Shown: in pieces, positions 8,595 through 19,576 of the stretch
Position numbering within the stretch: position 1 is the stretch's first letter
Layout: every line of letters starts with the position of its first letter
NCBI GenBank assembly: GCA_947497175.1
Contig: CANMFM010000006.1
Location: 248,001 to 312,000 of the forward strand
DNA from: an uncultured Aquimarina sp.
GTDB taxonomy: Bacteria; Bacteroidota; Bacteroidia; Flavobacteriales; Flavobacteriaceae
Reading direction: 5' to 3'
DNA length: 64,000 bases
Notes under the pieces: model-generated
Seen by the model: only the letters and a program-made list of their open reading frames with translations
Databases searched by the model: none
What the model was told of the DNA's origin: nothing
Program-made: the position numbers and the translations under genes

Positions 8595-9044
8595 TTAATT
8601 TAAATCTTCTAATCTTCTTATAGAAGACAATCCTTCTACTATCTTATTTTTTTGTTGCGTTAAGATAGATTGTGTACTCGTTGGTAATGTGGTTTCTGTA
8701 AGAACATCATTGTATTCTTCGACAGATGCTTCTTCTCCACGAATTGCTTCTTCAAGCATTGCTTCTTCATTATCTGAAGAAAAGAGATTTTTAACATCCA
8801 TCCATGTTCTATGTGCAGATCCCGTAATACTTCCGCCTTTGTCTACGTCCTGACCAAAAGCTTTTATTTCATTCTTTAGTTCATGACCAAAATCATATCG
8901 CTCTTGAGCTTTTCTGTTAAAATAGTTCTTAAGACCAGAGTGATTTACATTTTCTGCTGCTTTCTTAAAGCCTTTTTCGGCGTCGTAAGTTTTTTCCAAT
9001 AAATCATTTAATTTGTTTCCAACTTCTTCAGAATACGTTTTCAT
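8595..9044 (-). CDS. DUF2383 / PA2169-family four-helix-bundle protein
   Basis: 149 residues, all helical, beginning MKTYSEEVGNKLNDLLEKTYDAEKGFKKAAEN. The pattern N-x-L-x-x-x-x-x-D-A-x-x-G-[FY], then R-x-x-F-x-x-E-x-x-x-x-I and the later G-S-x-x-G-x-x-H-R-x-W (around 74-83) identifies the PA2169 family, ferritin-like bundles seen in stress-induced gene sets. No di-iron ligand set is obvious. It probably forms an operon with the small membrane protein just upstream at 9086-9244. The protein at 10111 is a more divergent relative. Confidence 0.85.
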   Translation of the reverse strand: MKTYSEEVGNKLNDLLEKTYDAEKGFKKAAENVNHSGLKNYFNRKAQERYDFGHELKNEIKAFGQDVDKGGSITGSAHRTWMDVKNLFSSDNEEAMLEEAIRGEEASVEEYNDVLTETTLPTSTQSILTQQKNKIVEGLSSIRRLEDLN

Positions 9045-10110: not shown

Positions 10111-10608
10111 ATGAAGAAAGATTACAAACAAGTTCTGGGGGTATTAGAAATGGTTTTCGATGCCGAAAGAAGGTATTTTGAAATTGCCGAAGAGGTTCAT
10201 ATTGCAGAGCTTAAGAGATTCTTAAACCATCAAAGAGTAGAACGTAATAAATTTGCTAATGAAATGGCTGGAGTTTGTGCTTTCAATAGTATTGAGACTG
10301 AAATCTTATGCATTAAAAAAAGTAATAGTACCAAGACAGGGCTAGCTACTAAAGAAGGAATAGAAAAGCCTGATTATTTATCAATGATGAAAATGTGTCT
10401 GGCATATGATGAGGATATCATAGAGGCTTGTGCAATTCTTATCCGGGATAAATCAATTCCTGTTGATATTTTAGAGATAGCCACTAGACTTATGACTTTT
10501 TTAATCTTTCAGGCTATAGAGGGTAATCAGCTTATCGAAGAGATAAAAGCTAAGGAATACCAAAAAGGACAAGTAAAAGTAGTTCAACTTAGAAACAGTT
10601 TTTTGTAA
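10111..10608 (+). CDS. DUF2383-like helical bundle protein
   Basis: 165 residues starting MKKDYKQVLGVLEMVFDAERRYFEIAEEV, with the same D-A-E-x-x-[YF] and R-F-L-N-x-x-R-x-E-R-x-x-F pattern as the protein at 8595, and Y-D-E-D-I-I-E-A in the position of the third helix. It is more divergent than the first copy: the central G-x-x-H-R-x-W motif is missing. It is followed by a terminator overlapping the stop codon region and is the last gene of the DUF2945-Pmp3 unit. Confidence 0.65.
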   Translation: MKKDYKQVLGVLEMVFDAERRYFEIAEEVHIAELKRFLNHQRVERNKFANEMAGVCAFNSIETEILCIKKSNSTKTGLATKEGIEKPDYLSMMKMCLAYDEDIIEACAILIRDKSIPVDILEIATRLMTFLIFQAIEGNQLIEEIKAKEYQKGQVKVVQLRNSFL

Positions 10609-10732: not shown

Positions 10733-11650
10733 ATGAATTTATTTAAATCTGCTATACTGTCATTACCAATTATGTTATCCTGCATAACTATGGGATTCTC
10801 GCAATCGGAAATTCCAGTAGTGACTAGCGATAGCATAAAACCCATAAAAGAATTGTATAATCAAAAACTGCAAGTAGCATTAGAAACTGAGATTTGCGGA
10901 AATCTGAAATGGAAAAAACTAGTCGATAAAGAGAAGATGTCATTAGGCATAGTAGATCTTAGTGATATAGATAACATAAGGTATGCCGGTCTTAATGACG
11001 ACTTTATGATGTATGCTGCTAGTTTACCAAAAATAGCCATACTTTTAGCAGCCATGGACGCTATCGAACGTGGCGAATTAGAGGATACTGCAGAAATTCA
11101 AAAAGATTTGCGTTTAATGATCAGCAAATCAAACAATCAGGCTTCTACCAGAATGATAGATCGTCTGGGGTATGAAAAAATTGAAAAAGTACTTCGAGGT
11201 CCTAAAAATAAATTATATGATGAAGAAGTTGGAGGAGGTCTATGGGTAGGAAAGCGTTATGCTTCTGGCGGGAAGCGATATCCCGAACCTATGAAAGGAC
11301 TAAGCCATGCGGCTACGACACGACAAGTATGTAGTTTTTATTACCAATTGGTTATGGGCAATTTAGTTAGTACCGAACGTTCTAGGCAAATGCTGGAAAT
11401 TATGAAAAATCCGGGACTGCATCATAAATTTGTCAATACACTAGATAAAATAGCTCCAAAAGCCGACTTATATAGAAAATCAGGATCTTGGAAAAACTAT
11501 CACTCTGACTCTGTTTTGGTATGGGGCCCAAAACGCAGATATATTATTGTAGCACTTCTTGAAGATTCTTACGGAGAGCAAACTATTAGAGATTTAGTGA
11601 TTCCGCTAGAAAAAGTTTTAAAAAAGTCAAATACGATAAAATCTAGGTAA
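10733..11650 (+). CDS. Exported serine hydrolase of the class A beta-lactamase / PBP fold
   Basis: 305 residues with an N-terminal signal peptide ending G-F-S-Q. The three active-site motifs of penicillin-recognising enzymes are present in order: S-x-x-K as S97-L-P-K100, S-x-N as S133-N-N135, and K-[ST]-G as K249-S-G251. Compared with true class A beta-lactamases, the E166-type omega loop is not evident, so a peptidase or unusual hydrolase is likelier than a resistance enzyme. The next gene, a nucleotide-carrier-like protein, starts only 12 bp downstream, so the two are very probably one operon. Confidence 0.75.
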   Translation: MNLFKSAILSLPIMLSCITMGFSQSEIPVVTSDSIKPIKELYNQKLQVALETEICGNLKWKKLVDKEKMSLGIVDLSDIDNIRYAGLNDDFMMYAASLPKIAILLAAMDAIERGELEDTAEIQKDLRLMISKSNNQASTRMIDRLGYEKIEKVLRGPKNKLYDEEVGGGLWVGKRYASGGKRYPEPMKGLSHAATTRQVCSFYYQLVMGNLVSTERSRQMLEIMKNPGLHHKFVNTLDKIAPKADLYRKSGSWKNYHSDSVLVWGPKRRYIIVALLEDSYGEQTIRDLVIPLEKVLKKSNTIKSR

Positions 11651-11662
11651 TATCTTAGCGAT

Positions 11663-14500
11663 ATGCTCAGAGATATATTTAAGAAGGTTTTCAACATAAG
11701 AGATGGAGAAATTTACATCTCTTTTTTAATGCAGTTATATATTTTTCTAATTATAACTGCATTATTGCTTATCAAACCTACGGTAAATGCCATTTTTCTT
11801 TCAGAACTAGGAGGGGACCAATTGCCATACGGGTTTATTCTGGTAGCTTTTGCAGCAATATTAAGTTCTTATTTTTACAATAAAACGATTCATCGTTTTT
11901 CAATAAAAACGATAACCTTACTAAGTCTATTACTATTTAGTTCTTTTTTTATAGTATTAGGTTTTATGATGAAGGTAGATTCAATAACCTCTAAATCATT
12001 GTTATACTTTTATTATGTTGTTGTTTCCCTTTTTGCAGTACTAACGACTTCGCAATTCTGGATTATAGCGAATATGGTTTACAATGCAAGAGAAGCAAAA
12101 CGCCTTTTTGGTTTTATTGGGGCCGGTGCTATAGTCGGAGGTATATTTGGGGGGTATCTCACTTCAATAATAGCAACTCACCTTGGGAACAAATATGTGG
12201 TATTCTTAGCAGGTGTGATCATCTTTAGTTGTGTCCCTTTACTTTTGCTCATATGGAAAACAAAGATTAAAAAATTAAATAACTATGTAAAGAAGCAAAG
12301 ACAACAAAACGATATTAAAAGTTATAGTTCGTCTATCAAATTAATCGTTCGATCTAAGCATCTTACCTATCTGGCATTAATTACAGGTATAGGTGTTTTT
12401 ATTGCGAAGTTAGTAGACTATCAATTTAGTGATTTTGCAAATAGAGTTATTTTGGATGCTGATCGTTTGGCTTCCTTTTTTGGATTTTGGTTTTCTACTT
12501 TTAGTGTTATAGCTCTATGTATCCAATTATTTGTTACCAATAGAGTTGTAACGTTGCTAGGTGTTTCTTCTTCATTATTGATTCTCCCTTTAGGAATAGC
12601 ATTAGGGAGTCTGCTATTTTTGGCAATCCCCGAATTATGGGTTATGGTTTTAATAAAAGGGATCGATGGTAGTTTCAAACAATCAATTAATAAAGCCTCA
12701 ATAGAGTTAGCAATTATGCCAATTCCGCATAGCATTAAAAAGCAAGCAAAATCGTATATCGATGTAGTAGTAGATAGTTTGGCGACTGGATTAGCAGGGT
12801 TATTGCTCATTTTTGTGATCGAAAAGCTAAATCTTACAACACCATACATTACGATAATAACCATATCATTTCTTTTTGTATGGATTTTATTAATATATCG
12901 ATTAAGAAATGAATATTTTAATTCTTTTAGAACGAATATTCAAAATTCATTATTAAAAAGTCAGGAAAATACTTCCGAAAAGAAAAATTCTCTTCGCTTA
13001 GTTTCTGAAACGTTAAATAAAGGATCAGAACAAGAAATTATAAACTTGCTTGACAGCTTAGCTGATACATCTATAAAGCATTTTAAAGAGAGCATAGTCA
13101 ATTTATTGGATCACCCTTCACATAGAATAAAAAGACTTGCAATTCAACATCTGTTTTTTTTCGATAAGGGAACCGCTGCAAATAAAATAGAAAAACTTAT
13201 TTATATTAAAGATGATGAAACAGTATATGCTGCGATGGATTATCTTTTAGAGCATACTGCTTTGAAAACCGAAGATGTTTTTATGTCTTTTCTGGATCAT
13301 GAAGATGATTATATAGCAAATGCCGCATTATTATGCTTAGCTAAAGAATCAGGTAATAACGGTAGTTTGGCCCAGAAATATAGATTAGAGCAGAGAATAG
13401 AAGATAAAATACAAGAGCTTATTATGCCCACTAATGAACACCGCATTGAAGAGATAGCAGAAATGTTAATTACGGTAGCCTATGCAAGAATGCCCCAGTA
13501 TTATTCTTATATTTCTGTGTATTTTGATCATACCAATCCATACATTGTTGAGCATGCCATTAAGGCTGCAGGAATAACCTCTGAAGATATTTTTATAAAG
13601 CGTTTATTTAATTTTCTGGCTGAAAAGCAGTTCAGGAAAAAAGCGATTAAAGCTTTAAAAAATTACGGACAAGAGATTAATAAAACGATACTCAAACTTG
13701 ACAAAAGTGAAACCTTAAAAGCTTCTGTACTACAACAAATCCCTAAAGTCGTAACTGCATTTAAAACGCAAAATTCGGTTTCAGTTTTATTTAGATTATT
13801 ATTAAGTAAAGACGTTTTGACAAGGTACGAAGCAGCCAGAGCATTAAACAAGCTTCAAAGAAAGAAGAAGAGTTTGATTTTCAATCAAAAGAAAATAATC
13901 ACTTTAATTTTAAGAGAAGTCAAAATTTATCGTCGCACTGTGCAGGCTATATATATTATCCAAAACAAATTAGGTAAACAAACCAAAATGGCTGAAGAGC
14001 ATTCTGATGTGTTCCTGGAAAATCAAGTTGCTCATGAAAATCTATTAGAATTGCTTCAATCACAAAAGGAAAAAAGTTTTGCTTGTATCTTCAAGTTGTT
14101 AAGTTTGAAATATACTCATACTGATATCGAAATGGCTTATTTTGGTTGGTCAAGCAATATTCCCGAAACCAAAGCAAATGCTATTGAGTTTTTAGATAAT
14201 TTATTAGAAATGAGATTAAAATCTGCGCTACTTCCTCTTATGGAAAGCCAAATAGCCCCAGATACAGTTCAAGTACCGAAGTTTTTTACTTCAGAACAAA
14301 AATGTCTTGTTTATTTATTGAAAAACAGAGGCGAACAGACAAAACTGGCCGTCTTAAATCTAATGCGATATTCTCAAGACACTAAAAATCTAAAATACAT
14401 ACAACCCTTACTGAAACACAAAAGTGAAGAAGTCCGATTGTTTTCAAAAACTGCTATAGAAACTATTACTTTAGATAGCATGGCTCAATCTTTAGATTGA
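11663..14500 (+). CDS. Npt1/Npt2 (ATP/ADP translocase-like) MFS carrier fused to a HEAT-like repeat domain
   Basis: 945 residues. The first ~430 residues form about twelve membrane helices (e.g. FLIITALLLIKPTVNAIFLS near 30), with FGFIGAGAIVGGIFGGYLTS near 160, the glycine-rich helix typical of NTT nucleotide carriers of chlamydiae, rickettsiae and plastids. The remaining ~500 residues are soluble helical hairpins (e.g. HPSHRIKRLAIQHLFFF, SKDVLTRYEAARALNKLQ) resembling HEAT repeats, a layout known in bacterial NTT relatives. Substrate is not predictable from sequence. It is cotranscribed with the serine hydrolase and overlaps the convergent hydrolase gene by 16 bp. Confidence 0.75.
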   Translation: MLRDIFKKVFNIRDGEIYISFLMQLYIFLIITALLLIKPTVNAIFLSELGGDQLPYGFILVAFAAILSSYFYNKTIHRFSIKTITLLSLLLFSSFFIVLGFMMKVDSITSKSLLYFYYVVVSLFAVLTTSQFWIIANMVYNAREAKRLFGFIGAGAIVGGIFGGYLTSIIATHLGNKYVVFLAGVIIFSCVPLLLLIWKTKIKKLNNYVKKQRQQNDIKSYSSSIKLIVRSKHLTYLALITGIGVFIAKLVDYQFSDFANRVILDADRLASFFGFWFSTFSVIALCIQLFVTNRVVTLLGVSSSLLILPLGIALGSLLFLAIPELWVMVLIKGIDGSFKQSINKASIELAIMPIPHSIKKQAKSYIDVVVDSLATGLAGLLLIFVIEKLNLTTPYITIITISFLFVWILLIYRLRNEYFNSFRTNIQNSLLKSQENTSEKKNSLRLVSETLNKGSEQEIINLLDSLADTSIKHFKESIVNLLDHPSHRIKRLAIQHLFFFDKGTAANKIEKLIYIKDDETVYAAMDYLLEHTALKTEDVFMSFLDHEDDYIANAALLCLAKESGNNGSLAQKYRLEQRIEDKIQELIMPTNEHRIEEIAEMLITVAYARMPQYYSYISVYFDHTNPYIVEHAIKAAGITSEDIFIKRLFNFLAEKQFRKKAIKALKNYGQEINKTILKLDKSETLKASVLQQIPKVVTAFKTQNSVSVLFRLLLSKDVLTRYEAARALNKLQRKKKSLIFNQKKIITLILREVKIYRRTVQAIYIIQNKLGKQTKMAEEHSDVFLENQVAHENLLELLQSQKEKSFACIFKLLSLKYTHTDIEMAYFGWSSNIPETKANAIEFLDNLLEMRLKSALLPLMESQIAPDTVQVPKFFTSEQKCLVYLLKNRGEQTKLAVLNLMRYSQDTKNLKYIQPLLKHKSEEVRLFSKTAIETITLDSMAQSLD

Positions 14501-15741
14501 ATCGCCTTATCGATTTTTGATGCTAAGTACATATGGGCACCGGCAGAATTTTTATTGAGTACGTTGGTCATCAAACATACTATGTATTTGGTGTTATTAG
14601 GTTGCTCTACGATAATTACAGAATTCATATAATTGAAGACGTTACCGGCATAACTCGAGCAATTCGGATCTTTTTCTCGATCACATTTATAAAAACTTCC
14701 AGATTTGAAATATACGGCAGCGCTATCTAACCTGCGGGATTTGGCATATCGTATCCTACGATCGGTTAGGTATAACATTCTTTTGATCTCAAGACTGGAT
14801 TTTGCATCAACTACATTACCTTGTTCTAATTTTATTAGATATTTCATCAATCCAACGGGAGTTCCAATACTTCCTCCTTTTCTGCCTACATATCTTCCTG
14901 CCGCTCCAGTGAACAATTTCCCCAGTCTCCATTCATCTTTGGTTATACCTAGTTCTCGTAAAGGTTCATTTACCAGGTTAATAGCAAAATCGGTAAGCGA
15001 GTCGCGAGGTGTTTCTTTAAAATAGTTTTCTGCTTCTTCTTCGGTAAGATTTTCATACCGTTCTTTGAACGCAGCCATAAGAATAGCCTCTCTCCATACT
15101 ACACTCGCTGCACCATTATTACTTACTGATACCATATGATCTGCCCACTCATACAATGAAAATTCATCACTTGCTCTAACTCTTCTCTTAATCAATTTAT
15201 CCGTCTCAATATCATAAATAGGTATCGTATGGTGATCACCAGTTCCCCAGTATCTTGCGCTAACTCGTTTATTGCGTAGTAGTGCCGTTCTAGCTTCCCA
15301 TGATCCAGGACAGAGTTTTTGAAGTTGTACGAAAAGAGCATTTAACACTGCTATTTTACCAACACTACCAGGTTGGTAACCTGTGTTTTCTCTAAAAGCT
15401 GCATATTTCAGACTGTCTGGATTGCTCATATCTAGTACTGTAGCAGAGTATCCTCTGCCAGGAAACAGCCTGTTCATTCTCTTTGCGAACGCTTCATCTT
15501 CGATAAGAATTTGCCCTAAACTATCATCTTGGCGTTCAAGTAAGTTGAGTTTAATATCCGCTAATTTCTTATATGCGCCGACAGGTATTCTTCTATTTTC
15601 TATACTATCTAGTTGCATCTTATGCAATCTATATAACCTTGCTATACCGGTTTGCTCATATCCATCTATAGGGTATGGGATAGAAAACCCGAAGGATAGT
15701 ATAATAAAAGTGATAATTCCTATTTTTGTTAGTCTAATCAT
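14485..15741 (-). CDS. Exported serine hydrolase of the PBP/beta-lactamase fold, second type
   Basis: 418 residues with a single N-terminal hydrophobic segment (IGIITFIILSFGFS), consistent with export. Active-site motifs: S126-V-G-K129 within YQPGSVGKI, S207-N-N209, and K346-S-G348 within YFKSGSF. It is larger than the hydrolase at 10733 and has a cysteine-bearing insertion after KSG (CDREKDPNC), possibly a disulfide loop. It starts 3 bp after the stop of the dikinase gene and so belongs to the same operon. It is not a close copy of the first hydrolase, yet each is paired with an ATP-related partner. Confidence 0.75.
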   Translation of the reverse strand: MIRLTKIGIITFIILSFGFSIPYPIDGYEQTGIARLYRLHKMQLDSIENRRIPVGAYKKLADIKLNLLERQDDSLGQILIEDEAFAKRMNRLFPGRGYSATVLDMSNPDSLKYAAFRENTGYQPGSVGKIAVLNALFVQLQKLCPGSWEARTALLRNKRVSARYWGTGDHHTIPIYDIETDKLIKRRVRASDEFSLYEWADHMVSVSNNGAASVVWREAILMAAFKERYENLTEEEAENYFKETPRDSLTDFAINLVNEPLRELGITKDEWRLGKLFTGAAGRYVGRKGGSIGTPVGLMKYLIKLEQGNVVDAKSSLEIKRMLYLTDRRIRYAKSRRLDSAAVYFKSGSFYKCDREKDPNCSSYAGNVFNYMNSVIIVEQPNNTKYIVCLMTNVLNKNSAGAHMYLASKIDKAIQSKD

Positions 15742-15744
15742 AAC

Positions 15745-18654
15745 TTATAATTTGGCCGTGAGCATAATTTTTTTATCGTAATTAATAGTGGGAGTAATAG
15801 ATGTTAAATACGTAGAGCTTTTAGCCTTTTTATTCTCTACGAAAGGTCTGATTTGAAAAAGCCATAATTTATCGTCTTCAAAGCCTAACTCGACATCGTA
15901 AGCTCCTTTGTACTTAGAATCTGTTTTTTTTGCTAAAGTTTCTCGTATAGAGCCTGCCATCTGCCGAATATCATCAATATTCTTAGAATTTAGTATAGGA
16001 CTCTCAAAAGTAGTGGTGTTTTCAGAAGTTCCTCCATTGGTTGGAAGTCGTATAAAATCAGGCTGTCTGGCTGGTGCTAATAACCTATTTGAAGAAGGGG
16101 TTATCAATCTTGTTTCGGCTGATTGCCCGTCCACAGCGCCTCCTGCACCACGACTAAATGCCACAGTAAGGTCGTTTTCGTTCCCTACATTGATACCTTT
16201 AGTGATCAGTACTCCCGAGTAGTCGACATCAACACTGGGTATTATTAGTATAGATGGAAAAACATTTTCTGGATTTAATAAATATTGCTGTCTCCATTTA
16301 AAACTTCGTTCGGTATATGGGGAAGCCCATACGTCTTTAATCCCCTGAATAATTTTGTCTTCAGATACTATATTAAACAATGTGAGATTCAGTCCGGCAC
16401 CGGTAAATTCTTCCAGATCCTCCATATTGGTGTCACTTCTAAGAAATACAGGAACGCTCCCAACAGAGGAGCCAAAAATGTTTTTGAATTTGATTCTCAA
16501 GTCAGATATGAACTCATCCTTTAAATCCATTTGTTTAATAGCATTTTTGAGAACCTTAAGGTTTTCGAGCTGAAACTTTTCTATTTCGATATGTGAGATT
16601 TTGTTAGCTCTCATTTTTTCGGCTTCAACAAAAGTATTCCTTAAAAAATCCCAATATGAAGATGAGGTATTCGGCATCTTTTGATCCATGTGATTTCTGA
16701 AAATACCAAAAGGAATTACCAAACCTTCGACGACATGATCAGGGAACATAGCTTTCAACTGTCCTAAATTTGCTGCTTTGGGGCCACAAAGTTTTCCAGA
16801 ATCATTTGCATCAATTTCTGCCATGTTAAGGATGTTAGTTTGCTCTAATTGTATTTGATCTGTAGGTACCGTAATCTTAATATCGTTACGTATATCTTCA
16901 CTAAATAGAGCACGTTCCTCTGGTGTCATATCCTTTTCAATCTTTAGAATTACGTTTCCTTTGTCTGATACAGCATAAAATACTTTTTGGCCATTAAATT
17001 TTAAGAGTGCTTTTAGATTTTTATCAGAAAGAGCCGCGTTTGGAATACCTAAATTTCGAGCTAATAATTGTACGTGTGAAACCAAATTACCTTCTGAAAC
17101 TGTCATAATTCCGGCCACAGGTTTGAGATCAGACGGCGGCTTTTGAAAAATGTATATTTTTTCGGTATCGACTTCGATATCCTCTGAAGAACCTTCAACT
17201 ACGACCAGCGTGCCATGCGCGTACCCAGGATTGAGTCCTCTGATTGTGCTTTGATTCTCCAGTTGCATAACGGTATTGGTTAATGAAGATTCTTTGGCTA
17301 AAAATGATCCTAAAACACTTACGCTTTCGCCTAAATCTAAAGCTACCGAGGATCTGATTCTATCATCAATAAATCCATAGGCCTTGGGCTCAAAAAGAGT
17401 GTAAGTGTTTACTACATCCTGGTAGTTAGCTTTTGCCATAGCCGCACTCCATTCTACAATACTGCGGGCAGCGGTGAGAAAATCATTAAGTTCATTTATA
17501 GTTAACTCATTCTTTGATAAATAAGATTGTAAAATAGGTTGTACTCTTTGCCATTCCCAAAGTTCAATCATTCCAGTTCCTGAGGCGGCATAACTCAGGG
17601 CGTATATTTTTTGTAATAGCTCTTTTAATTGTTCAGGCTTCCATTCTTGTGTTCTTTTTAATAAAATATTTTCTAATTCATTAGAAAGATCAAGTATTAT
17701 AAGACGATCGCTTCCTGTCGTGTTACGAGTAATATTTTCTCTAATTGTGCATAGGATATCTGCAATTTTTTGAACACTCGTAGCGTTAGAAACACTCTTG
17801 TCGTATTCACTTAAAAAAGAGAAAAGTTGTTTTTTGATTTCGCTGTCTGAAGAAATTTTGGAAACTTGTTTTTTTAGTTCTTCAGAATCAATTGGTGCAT
17901 AAAAGTTTTGTAATGTTTGAGTAAGTTTTGAAAAATCCCTCTTTAACTCATTAGATAATTTACTGTCATATTTCTTCCGGAAATTAGTAACAAGTTGTAT
18001 GTCTGTTTTATCAGGCTTTCCATGAATTTTGATTCTTACATCCATAAAATCAGGAAATTCTTCTGCAATGATTTTAGATTGACTACGCATTTGTTGCGCT
18101 AGGTTATTATCCCCATCGTGAGGAATATCTCTCAGAGATTGCCGGATTAAAAAATAATGTTTTTTAAGATGTATGTCATCTTTAAGTAACCATTGATAAA
18201 AATCCACACCCCATTCTTCTTCATCTTCAGATTGTACTGCTCCTCTATAGTATTGTCCTTTTCTTAAAATCCAGCCATCATCAACGCTGGCCAGATATTT
18301 GCCTAGCTGATATTGTTTTAAGCGATTTTGATTATTTTTTTCATCCCAAAAATCTTCTTTATTGGCATGTGCGAGAATCTCTCCAAAGAAGATATGATGT
18401 CTATTTGCCAATTCTTTAACGTCGTCTTTATAGCTGGCGTGTTGAATGCCACCACCTATAGAATCGGGACAAGGATCTCTGGGTTCTCTAATAGATCCAT
18501 CATCACAAAACCATTTAATTCTGTAGTAAGGCCCTCTTCTGTCAATTTTATATTTGGCAATTTGTTCCTTAATTTCATTAACAGGAATCTCTTGTCCAGA
18601 GGCCGTACCTGCAAGGATTAATAAAATGATAAGTGGAAAGTAAAATTTAGACAT
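15745..18654 (-). CDS. Exported PEP/pyruvate-binding-domain dikinase with glucan water dikinase-like domain order
   Basis: 969 residues with a signal peptide (hydrophobic 6-17, cleavage around T-A-S-G-Q). Residues ~25-460 are a mostly helical region of unknown role. Residues ~475-570 form a phosphohistidine swivel domain with the catalytic His527 in SHVQLLARNLGIP. Residues ~620-940 form the ATP-grasp PEP/pyruvate-binding domain: GPKAANLGQLK (624-634), LRSDTNMEDLEEFTGAG (738-754), SRGAGGAVDGQ and FQIRP (933-937). Pyruvate phosphate dikinase has the ATP-grasp first; His-domain before ATP-domain is the order of alpha-glucan and phosphoglucan water dikinases. Those transfer the ATP beta-phosphate to glucose units. 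Export is odd because ATP is cytosolic. Substrate is unknown. Confidence 0.75.
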   Translation of the reverse strand: MSKFYFPLIILLILAGTASGQEIPVNEIKEQIAKYKIDRRGPYYRIKWFCDDGSIREPRDPCPDSIGGGIQHASYKDDVKELANRHHIFFGEILAHANKEDFWDEKNNQNRLKQYQLGKYLASVDDGWILRKGQYYRGAVQSEDEEEWGVDFYQWLLKDDIHLKKHYFLIRQSLRDIPHDGDNNLAQQMRSQSKIIAEEFPDFMDVRIKIHGKPDKTDIQLVTNFRKKYDSKLSNELKRDFSKLTQTLQNFYAPIDSEELKKQVSKISSDSEIKKQLFSFLSEYDKSVSNATSVQKIADILCTIRENITRNTTGSDRLIILDLSNELENILLKRTQEWKPEQLKELLQKIYALSYAASGTGMIELWEWQRVQPILQSYLSKNELTINELNDFLTAARSIVEWSAAMAKANYQDVVNTYTLFEPKAYGFIDDRIRSSVALDLGESVSVLGSFLAKESSLTNTVMQLENQSTIRGLNPGYAHGTLVVVEGSSEDIEVDTEKIYIFQKPPSDLKPVAGIMTVSEGNLVSHVQLLARNLGIPNAALSDKNLKALLKFNGQKVFYAVSDKGNVILKIEKDMTPEERALFSEDIRNDIKITVPTDQIQLEQTNILNMAEIDANDSGKLCGPKAANLGQLKAMFPDHVVEGLVIPFGIFRNHMDQKMPNTSSSYWDFLRNTFVEAEKMRANKISHIEIEKFQLENLKVLKNAIKQMDLKDEFISDLRIKFKNIFGSSVGSVPVFLRSDTNMEDLEEFTGAGLNLTLFNIVSEDKIIQGIKDVWASPYTERSFKWRQQYLLNPENVFPSILIIPSVDVDYSGVLITKGINVGNENDLTVAFSRGAGGAVDGQSAETRLITPSSNRLLAPARQPDFIRLPTNGGTSENTTTFESPILNSKNIDDIRQMAGSIRETLAKKTDSKYKGAYDVELGFEDDKLWLFQIRPFVENKKAKSSTYLTSITPTINYDKKIMLTAKL

Positions 18655-19141: not shown

Positions 19142-19576
19142 TTAATCATTGATAATTTGACCATTTTTGTCAAATTCGATATCTTTTTTCTTTCCATTTA
19201 CTTTGAATTCGACATCATAAAACCTTCCTTTACGATAATGATCTACTTGTTCTATCTCAGTGATTTTATACTCTTTAAAATCTGATTTGATCCTTTTTTG
19301 TATTTGTTCTGGTAATTCTTTCTTTTTTATATTGCTTTCTGTTTCTATCCATTGACCCGAAGCGTCAAAATCGGCGCGATAAGAAATACCGTCGATTTTG
19401 AAATGAGATTCATAATTTCCATTTTTATCGGTATGCCAATCAGGATCATTTTCGTTGGGATATTTACTTTTGAAAGTTTGTTTGACCGCTTCAGGGGTAG
19501 CGTCCTGGCCAAAAGATTTGCAACTATAGTTACTATAAAATAAAACTAGTATCAATAGAAATAATATAGGTTTCAT
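19142..19576 (-). CDS. PepSY-like (DUF2874) exported protein
   Basis: 144 residues with an N-terminal signal segment ending YSNYSC (Cys19), possibly a lipoprotein. Two repeats of the PepSY-like type follow: one around 30-80 with the F-x-x-K-[YF]-P pattern (TFKSKYPNENDPDWHTDKNG) and D-F-D-x-x-G-x-W, and one around 85-140 with Y-K-I-T-E-I-E and E-F-D-x-x-G-x-I at the end. This doubled arrangement is common in Bacteroidota periplasmic proteins. The molecular role is unknown. Confidence 0.85.
   Translation of the reverse strand: MKPILFLLILVLFYSNYSCKSFGQDATPEAVKQTFKSKYPNENDPDWHTDKNGNYESHFKIDGISYRADFDASGQWIETESNIKKKELPEQIQKRIKSDFKEYKITEIEQVDHYRKGRFYDVEFKVNGKKKDIEFDKNGQIIND

Follow-up and report, generated by a model that had tools for sequence, protein, structure and literature searches.

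Co-inheritance of a predicted exported dikinase with two serine acyl-enzymes and, mostly, a nucleotide-carrier-like protein in scattered Bacteroidota

In a 64,000-nucleotide stretch of DNA from an uncultured Aquimarina sp. (contig CANMFM010000006.1, positions 248,001 to 312,000; the whole stretch is called the window, and its own numbering is used throughout), a convergent block of four genes encodes a putative exported dikinase (DIK), two putative exported serine acyl-enzymes (H1 and H2) and a membrane protein of the nucleotide-carrier family with a HEAT-type tail (NTT-HEAT carrier). Here, we show that DIK, H1 and H2, mostly together with one clade of NTT-HEAT carriers, are co-inherited in scattered members of one phylum. 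On the plus strand, H1 (10733-11650; 305 residues) is followed after a 12-bp gap by the carrier gene (11663-14500; 945 residues), and on the minus strand DIK (15745-18654; 969 residues) is followed after a 3-bp gap by H2 (14485-15741; 418 residues). The two two-gene units meet tail to tail, the carrier and H2 genes sharing a 16-bp overlap (14485-14500, assigned to no strand); this order, with its gaps and overlap, had been described in an initial annotation of the window and was reproduced. As to function, we tentatively prefer a periplasmic, ATP-driven phosphotransfer module in which the four co-inherited proteins would act on envelope material, doubt about this slightly outweighing confidence.

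Co-inheritance and linkage of the four genes

Profiles made from seven-row alignments of each family were searched against a draw of 395 genomes from one phylum, with thresholds of 1e-20 for DIK, 1e-15 for H2, 1e-40 for H1 and 1e-20 for NTT. The searches open with a loose first look and divergent copies can be missed; that all four covered the same 395 genomes is taken from the agreement of their totals and of the genomes listed. DIK, H1 and H2 were each found in 13 genomes, and the three sets were identical, spanning 12 of 171 genera and six families (f1, f19, f31, f38, f44 and f50). NTT proteins at E<=1e-20 were more widespread (32 of 395), comprising all 13 DIK-positive genomes and 19 of the 382 DIK-negative ones, whereas matches above 600 bits were confined to DIK-positive genomes (11 of 13 vs. 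0 of 382). Genome draws are samples, and these co-occurrence counts are uncorrected for shared ancestry. The initial annotation had named a neighbourhood of the four families in this strain alone as grounds against its interpretation; instead, the block recurs across genera and families. A separate contig scan of genomes with one protein returned two relatives.

Within genera the distribution is patchy. The draw from the window's own genus (g1), which covered DIK, NTT and, in a subset, H2, contained DIK in 8 of 52 genomes and NTT in the same eight; H2 was detected in none of the 28 DIK-negative congeners tested (of 44), with both positive controls found. The four proteins of one congener, G640, are 81-96% identical to those of the window. 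Similarly, in genus g152 the set is present in G445 and absent as a set from G319, G380, G466 and G497, and in genus g172 it is present in G423 and absent as a set from G420, G532 and G544.

The surroundings of DIK were read in 21 genomes, i.e., the 13 of the phylum draw, seven additional ones from the genus and that of Arenibacter sp. 6A1 (L021), locus L020 being counted as G640. Sixteen of them carry the intact convergent block with H1 and carrier facing H2 and DIK (G000, G640, L021, G079, G102, G167, G095, G445, G570, G545, G614, G628, G619, G638, G595 and G643). In G301 the same block fits across a contig end, and G303 keeps all four genes adjacent in a changed arrangement, which brings the linkage of dikinase and carrier in relatives, a further point on which the first interpretation hinged, to 18 of 21 genomes. 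G404 has all four genes, far apart from each other. The gap between DIK and H2 amounts to -4 to 23 bp in 13 of the 14 genomes with the pair side by side, the exception being G408 (-154 bp), where the start was probably called too far upstream. In ten intact blocks that were measured, the distance between the convergent gene ends ranges from -16 to +107 bp.

Moreover, the chromosomal setting of the block varies within the genus. G000, G614, G628 and G640 show the setting of the window, with an AI-2E-type gene on one side and a DUF2383 gene on the other, a second setting is common to G619 and G595, and further ones are seen in G643 and G638. Being intact in several settings, the block behaves as a unit of selection, perhaps of transfer. 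No integrase was seen near it, no profile search having been aimed at integrases, and a search of viral contigs with a short pattern gave 56 fitting stretches, of which none coded for a relative, the GenBank phage collection lying outside this search. Cargo of mobile elements was considered and rejected, as the plasmid search matched a single one of 72,556 records, over 35% of the query and at a phosphoenolpyruvate (PEP) synthase gene.

Conserved features of the proteins

Export of the dikinase and both hydrolases, as initially annotated, is supported by hydrophobic N-terminal signals in 15 of 15 homologues of DIK, 15 of 15 of H2 and 14 of 15 of H1, scored by hydropathy with a simple script and by visual inspection rather than with SignalP; the sole H1 lacking one is that of G423, whose called start is doubtful. 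Judged by its ATP-grasp residues and its phosphohistidine domain, DIK is a member of the pyruvate phosphate dikinase/PEP synthase (PPDK/PEPS) superfamily. The predicted C-terminal ATP-grasp domain (residues 622-947; 15814-16791, minus strand) matches Pfam PPDK_N with an E-value of 1.5e-23, and this family (PF01326) is found in 15 of 15 homologues. It is preceded by a putative phosphohistidine (swivel) domain (residues ~472-575; 16930-17241, minus strand), with matches to PEP-utilizers in 11 of 15 at E<=0.1 (best 0.0014). H527 of the latter and K626, R739, D920, E922, Q934 and R936 of the former are invariant in all 15, and we take the Lys, Arg, Asp/Glu, Gln and Arg of the ATP-grasp domain to have catalytic roles. 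Aligned to the PEP synthase 8a8e, residues 472-545 of DIK fall on its later His domain and residues 689-943 on its earlier ATP domain, so the domain order of DIK appears reversed, phosphohistidine before ATP-grasp. In plant glucan water dikinase, the phosphohistidine domain likewise precedes a C-terminal ATP-grasp domain. Dikinase chemistry would be expected of such a protein. A function as PEP synthase or PPDK was ruled out by the domain order together with the lack of a match to the PEP/pyruvate-binding domain, which was looked for in the window's DIK at E<=1 and in the 15 members at E<=0.1.

The N-terminal region of DIK (residues ~25-470; 17245-18582, minus strand) is presumably its substrate domain. 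It holds many invariant residues, including C50 and C62, which would fit a periplasmic disulphide. These ~450 residues show no recurrent Pfam family, since over the whole protein PPDK_N, PEP-utilizers and GWD1_pHisD were the only families to occur in more than one of the 15 members, and they gave no credible solved-structure match. After the signal, no 19-residue stretch exceeds a hydropathy of 1.5 in 14 of the 15 sequences, that of G408 reaching 1.72. An N-terminal export signal without later hydrophobic stretch makes it most likely that DIK is a soluble periplasmic protein.

Further exported dikinases, likewise with the His domain ahead of the ATP domain and with the seven key residues, were observed apart from the module at L026, L027, L032, L009, L010 (625 residues) and L029-L031 (835-1324 residues). 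Of the 14 loci tried, L028 gave no match and L015 and L016 ran into an end, so that 11 complete sequences remained. In the 625-residue type, Ala stands in place of R783, and the dikinase of L029 carries a type IX secretion tail (Por_Secre_tail) and may thus be secreted.

H1 and H2 both match Beta-lactamase2 (PF13354) above cut-off (7e-19 and 2e-8, respectively), and by their SxxK, SxN and K[ST]G motifs they are acyl-enzymes of the Beta-lactamase2 or penicillin-binding-protein (PBP)-like type. The SxxK motifs noticed at first in the two window proteins turned out to be invariant, with the other motifs, in 15 of 15 homologues each: S97-L-P-K100, S133-x-N135 and K249-S-G in H1, and S126-x-G-K129, S207-x-N209 and K346-S-G in H2. 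The best solved-structure match of H1 by sequence, a weak one (E 0.0043), is TLL2115 (2j9o), which we take to be PBP-A. Class A beta-lactamases need Glu166. No Glu is invariant among the 15 H1 homologues, which makes their mechanism unlikely for H1; a class A assignment was discarded on this ground and on an NCBIfam bla_class_A score of 17.4 bits against a cut-off of 200. H2 has an invariant Cys pair (C353/C361), and sequence search gave no credible solved-structure relative for it. Directly after its signal region lies a YPIDG motif (Y23-G27; 15661-15675, minus strand), invariant in 15 of 15, which may represent a docking or strand-donating mature N-terminus.

For the carrier, the initial description as a nucleotide-carrier-like protein with a HEAT-like tail is borne out by Pfam matches to the TLC ATP/ADP transporter (PF03219, 1.2e-10), MFS_1 and HEAT_2 (PF13646, 6.7e-12). 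A hydrophobic part of 11 segments by hydropathy (residues ~1-425) is followed by a HEAT-type tail (residues ~430-945), and on its domain matches the protein is an NTT-HEAT fusion, joining a TLC/NTT domain and HEAT repeats in one chain. By profile, it aligns to the chloroplast ADP,ATP carrier 9j3j over ~320 residues (E 4.2e-13), with the charged positions K339, E348, K359, K363 and D367 identical and D252 conservatively exchanged (Glu in 9j3j). A tree built from 29 carriers unites those of 13 out of the 15 DIK-bearing genomes compared, with a support of 1.00 for their split from NTT-HEAT paralogues and single-domain NTTs; the carriers of G408 and G423 fall outside this group. The carrier is also the fastest-changing of the four proteins, with 26-51% identity to the window's sequence vs. 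41-61% for DIK, 42-76% for H2 and 43-69% for H1 (L020 apart). In the survey by Major, Embley and Williams (PMC5381601), NTT-HEAT fusions are treated as one widespread bacterial class with functions unknown as of 2017, and Bacteroidetes are among the NTT-bearing taxa of its Table 1.

An NTT-HEAT paralogue was also seen in a genome without the dikinase (L112:5939-12829), followed there by genes for an exported Omp85-domain protein, a lipoprotein-like protein and a calcineurin-like phosphoesterase. L109 and L111 look similarly arranged by eye, and the L112 locus represents another envelope, phosphate-related setting for NTT-HEAT.

A possible phosphotransfer module and its alternatives

DIK, by its family, would need ATP outside the inner membrane, and the carrier could provide it, as the initial annotation had suggested, with peptidoglycan or another periplasmic polymer as the putative target of the hydrolases. 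We infer the direction of transport, the substrate and the role of H1 and H2 as follows. The NTT-HEAT carrier would reside in the inner membrane, pass cytoplasmic ATP to the periplasm and take back spent nucleotide. H527 of DIK would receive phosphate from ATP held in the C-terminal ATP-grasp domain, with release of AMP and Pi, and the His domain might then swing to the N-terminal domain and phosphorylate, or thereby activate, an envelope substrate. H1 and H2, as acyl-enzymes of the penicillin-binding-protein fold, could act on the same material by cutting or remodelling its peptide or ester bonds. H2 would be the likeliest direct partner of DIK, with its gene directly after that of DIK. A bolder version, which we regard as conceivable and rather doubtful, is a transferable cassette energising the periplasm: NTT-HEAT would export ATP and take back AMP, DIK would phosphorylate or activate an envelope polymer, and the two PBP-like enzymes would process it.

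Several observations weigh against such a module. G408 and G423 have DIK-H2 with H1 facing and no carrier at the locus; the NTT-HEAT of G423 groups with those of DIK-less congeners, and the only NTT of G408 has 419 residues, with no HEAT found in it. Taken with the dispersed genes of G404, this indicates that a dedicated carrier linked to the other genes is the rule but no strict requirement. In G018, G124, G148 and G158, other exported dikinases (seven key residues present, Ala at the R783 position) occur with no NTT match at 1e-20, so a need for such a carrier is not general among exported dikinases. ATP has been reported in the periplasm of E. coli, an organism without ATP/ADP translocase (PMC7432876), and other ATP routes are therefore possible. 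The sections of PMC5381601 consulted name no NTT-HEAT with measured transport. Finally, structure models of DIK and H2 from three-row alignments were unusable, with mean predicted local distance difference test (pLDDT) scores of 36.6 and 41.4.

Some of these points could be read as scavenging: the exported DIK and the hydrolases would use environmental or leaked ATP to work on a compound from outside, and the carrier would import the nucleotide or the phosphorylated product rather than export ATP. The characterised NTTs of intracellular bacteria import nucleotides (PMC5381601), and periplasmic ATP in E. coli despite its missing translocase (PMC7432876), the two DIK genomes without dedicated carrier and the exported dikinases without NTT match are all in line with this option. 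We nevertheless consider it unlikely, since a carrier clade tied to the dikinase is at least as compatible with supply as with uptake, and among the blocks read neither an outside substrate nor an uptake porin turned up as a regular component.

Alternatively, the block could perform envelope chemistry without any nucleotide carrier, NTT-HEAT having drifted to a lipid or sugar-phosphate. DIK would then drive a condensation or activation step, as PigC and RedH do. The ATP domain of DIK matches models of these two, at scores that fall far short of the cut-offs (60.3 of 1300 and 40.4 of 1350 bits, respectively), and a drifted carrier would suit its rapid change as well as the unknown functions of the class (PMC5381601). 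The TLC-family match and the charged positions shared with 9j3j speak against it, however, and we rate such drift as unlikely as well.

Exported drug inactivation by a rifamycin-phosphotransferase-like enzyme and two beta-lactamase-like enzymes is suggested by the match of the rifamycin-phosphotransferase model to the ATP domain of DIK and by the Beta-lactamase2 matches, but the scores are far below the curated cut-offs (48.7 of 999 bits for the former, and the class A score of H1 given above), no Glu is invariant in H1, and a single pathway accounts better for the joint inheritance of all parts, which leaves this explanation very little credit. A chance neighbourhood kept by vertical descent without shared function would account for the similar distance patterns of the four proteins (correlations of 0.84-0.92), as common descent alone would give; it is scarcely credible given that the families are present in only some members of one genus and go together there, and given the different chromosomal settings and the retention of all four genes in G404 despite their dispersal.

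Neighbouring genes, significance and relation to known systems

An exported PepSY-like ('putative beta-lactamase-inhibitor-like') protein is encoded next to the block at 19142-19576. It was dropped as a fifth part: within the set of the window and L020-L025, it was found beside the block just in the window itself, in L022 and, in pieces, in L020, and within L118-L124 at L119 alone, L045-L052 lying outside this count. On the other side, a DUF2383-type protein (8595-9044) and a diverged second one (10111-10608, below cut-off) adjoin the block. Topoisomerase IB, MscS, AI-2E and hemerythrin-like genes, named by eye from the sequence, lie beyond the block, and the setting looks stress-related. A known anti-phage defence system was ruled out, as PADLOC models matched none of the four block proteins at E<=0.01.

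No description of the four-gene set as a system was found in the open-licence literature searched. As a system, the set appears new; its parts are new members or variants of known families. According to a 2020 review (PMC7432876), the inner-membrane route of periplasmic ATP is unknown, and Gram-negative bacteria, as far as known, have no gene for an ATP/ADP translocase homologue. With a clade of carriers passed on together with an exported enzyme that uses ATP, both this route and the function of NTT-HEAT can be tested in a single culturable group, and the two dedicated acyl-enzymes give a hint as to where the substrate may be found. If the bolder cassette reading holds true, the NTT-HEAT class would gain its first function, and ATP would have a genetically encoded route into the periplasm.

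Compared with known systems, DIK shares with PEP synthase and pyruvate phosphate dikinase the PPDK_N ATP-grasp and phosphohistidine domains with conserved catalytic residues, whereas those enzymes have the ATP domain first and possess a PEP/pyruvate-binding domain. With plant alpha-glucan, water dikinase (GWD), it has in common the His domain followed by a C-terminal ATP-grasp domain, a weak likeness in terms of family matches (PF22973, GWD1_pHisD, in 2 of 15 DIK members, best 0.011); DIK differs in having an export signal, another N-terminal region and bacterial partners, and no match to a starch-binding module (eight Pfam families listed, 15 members, E<=0.1). The S-x-x-K, S-x-N and K-S-G motifs of H1 and H2 are also those of PBP-A (TLL2115) and class A beta-lactamases, but the match of H1 is weak, no Glu166-like residue is invariant in it, and H2 is larger. 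Finally, the carrier shows the same succession of TLC/NTT domain and HEAT repeats as the NTT-HEAT proteins of PMC5381601; in the sections of that survey consulted, these are linked neither with an exported dikinase nor with serine hydrolases, whereas the clade described here is tied to both.

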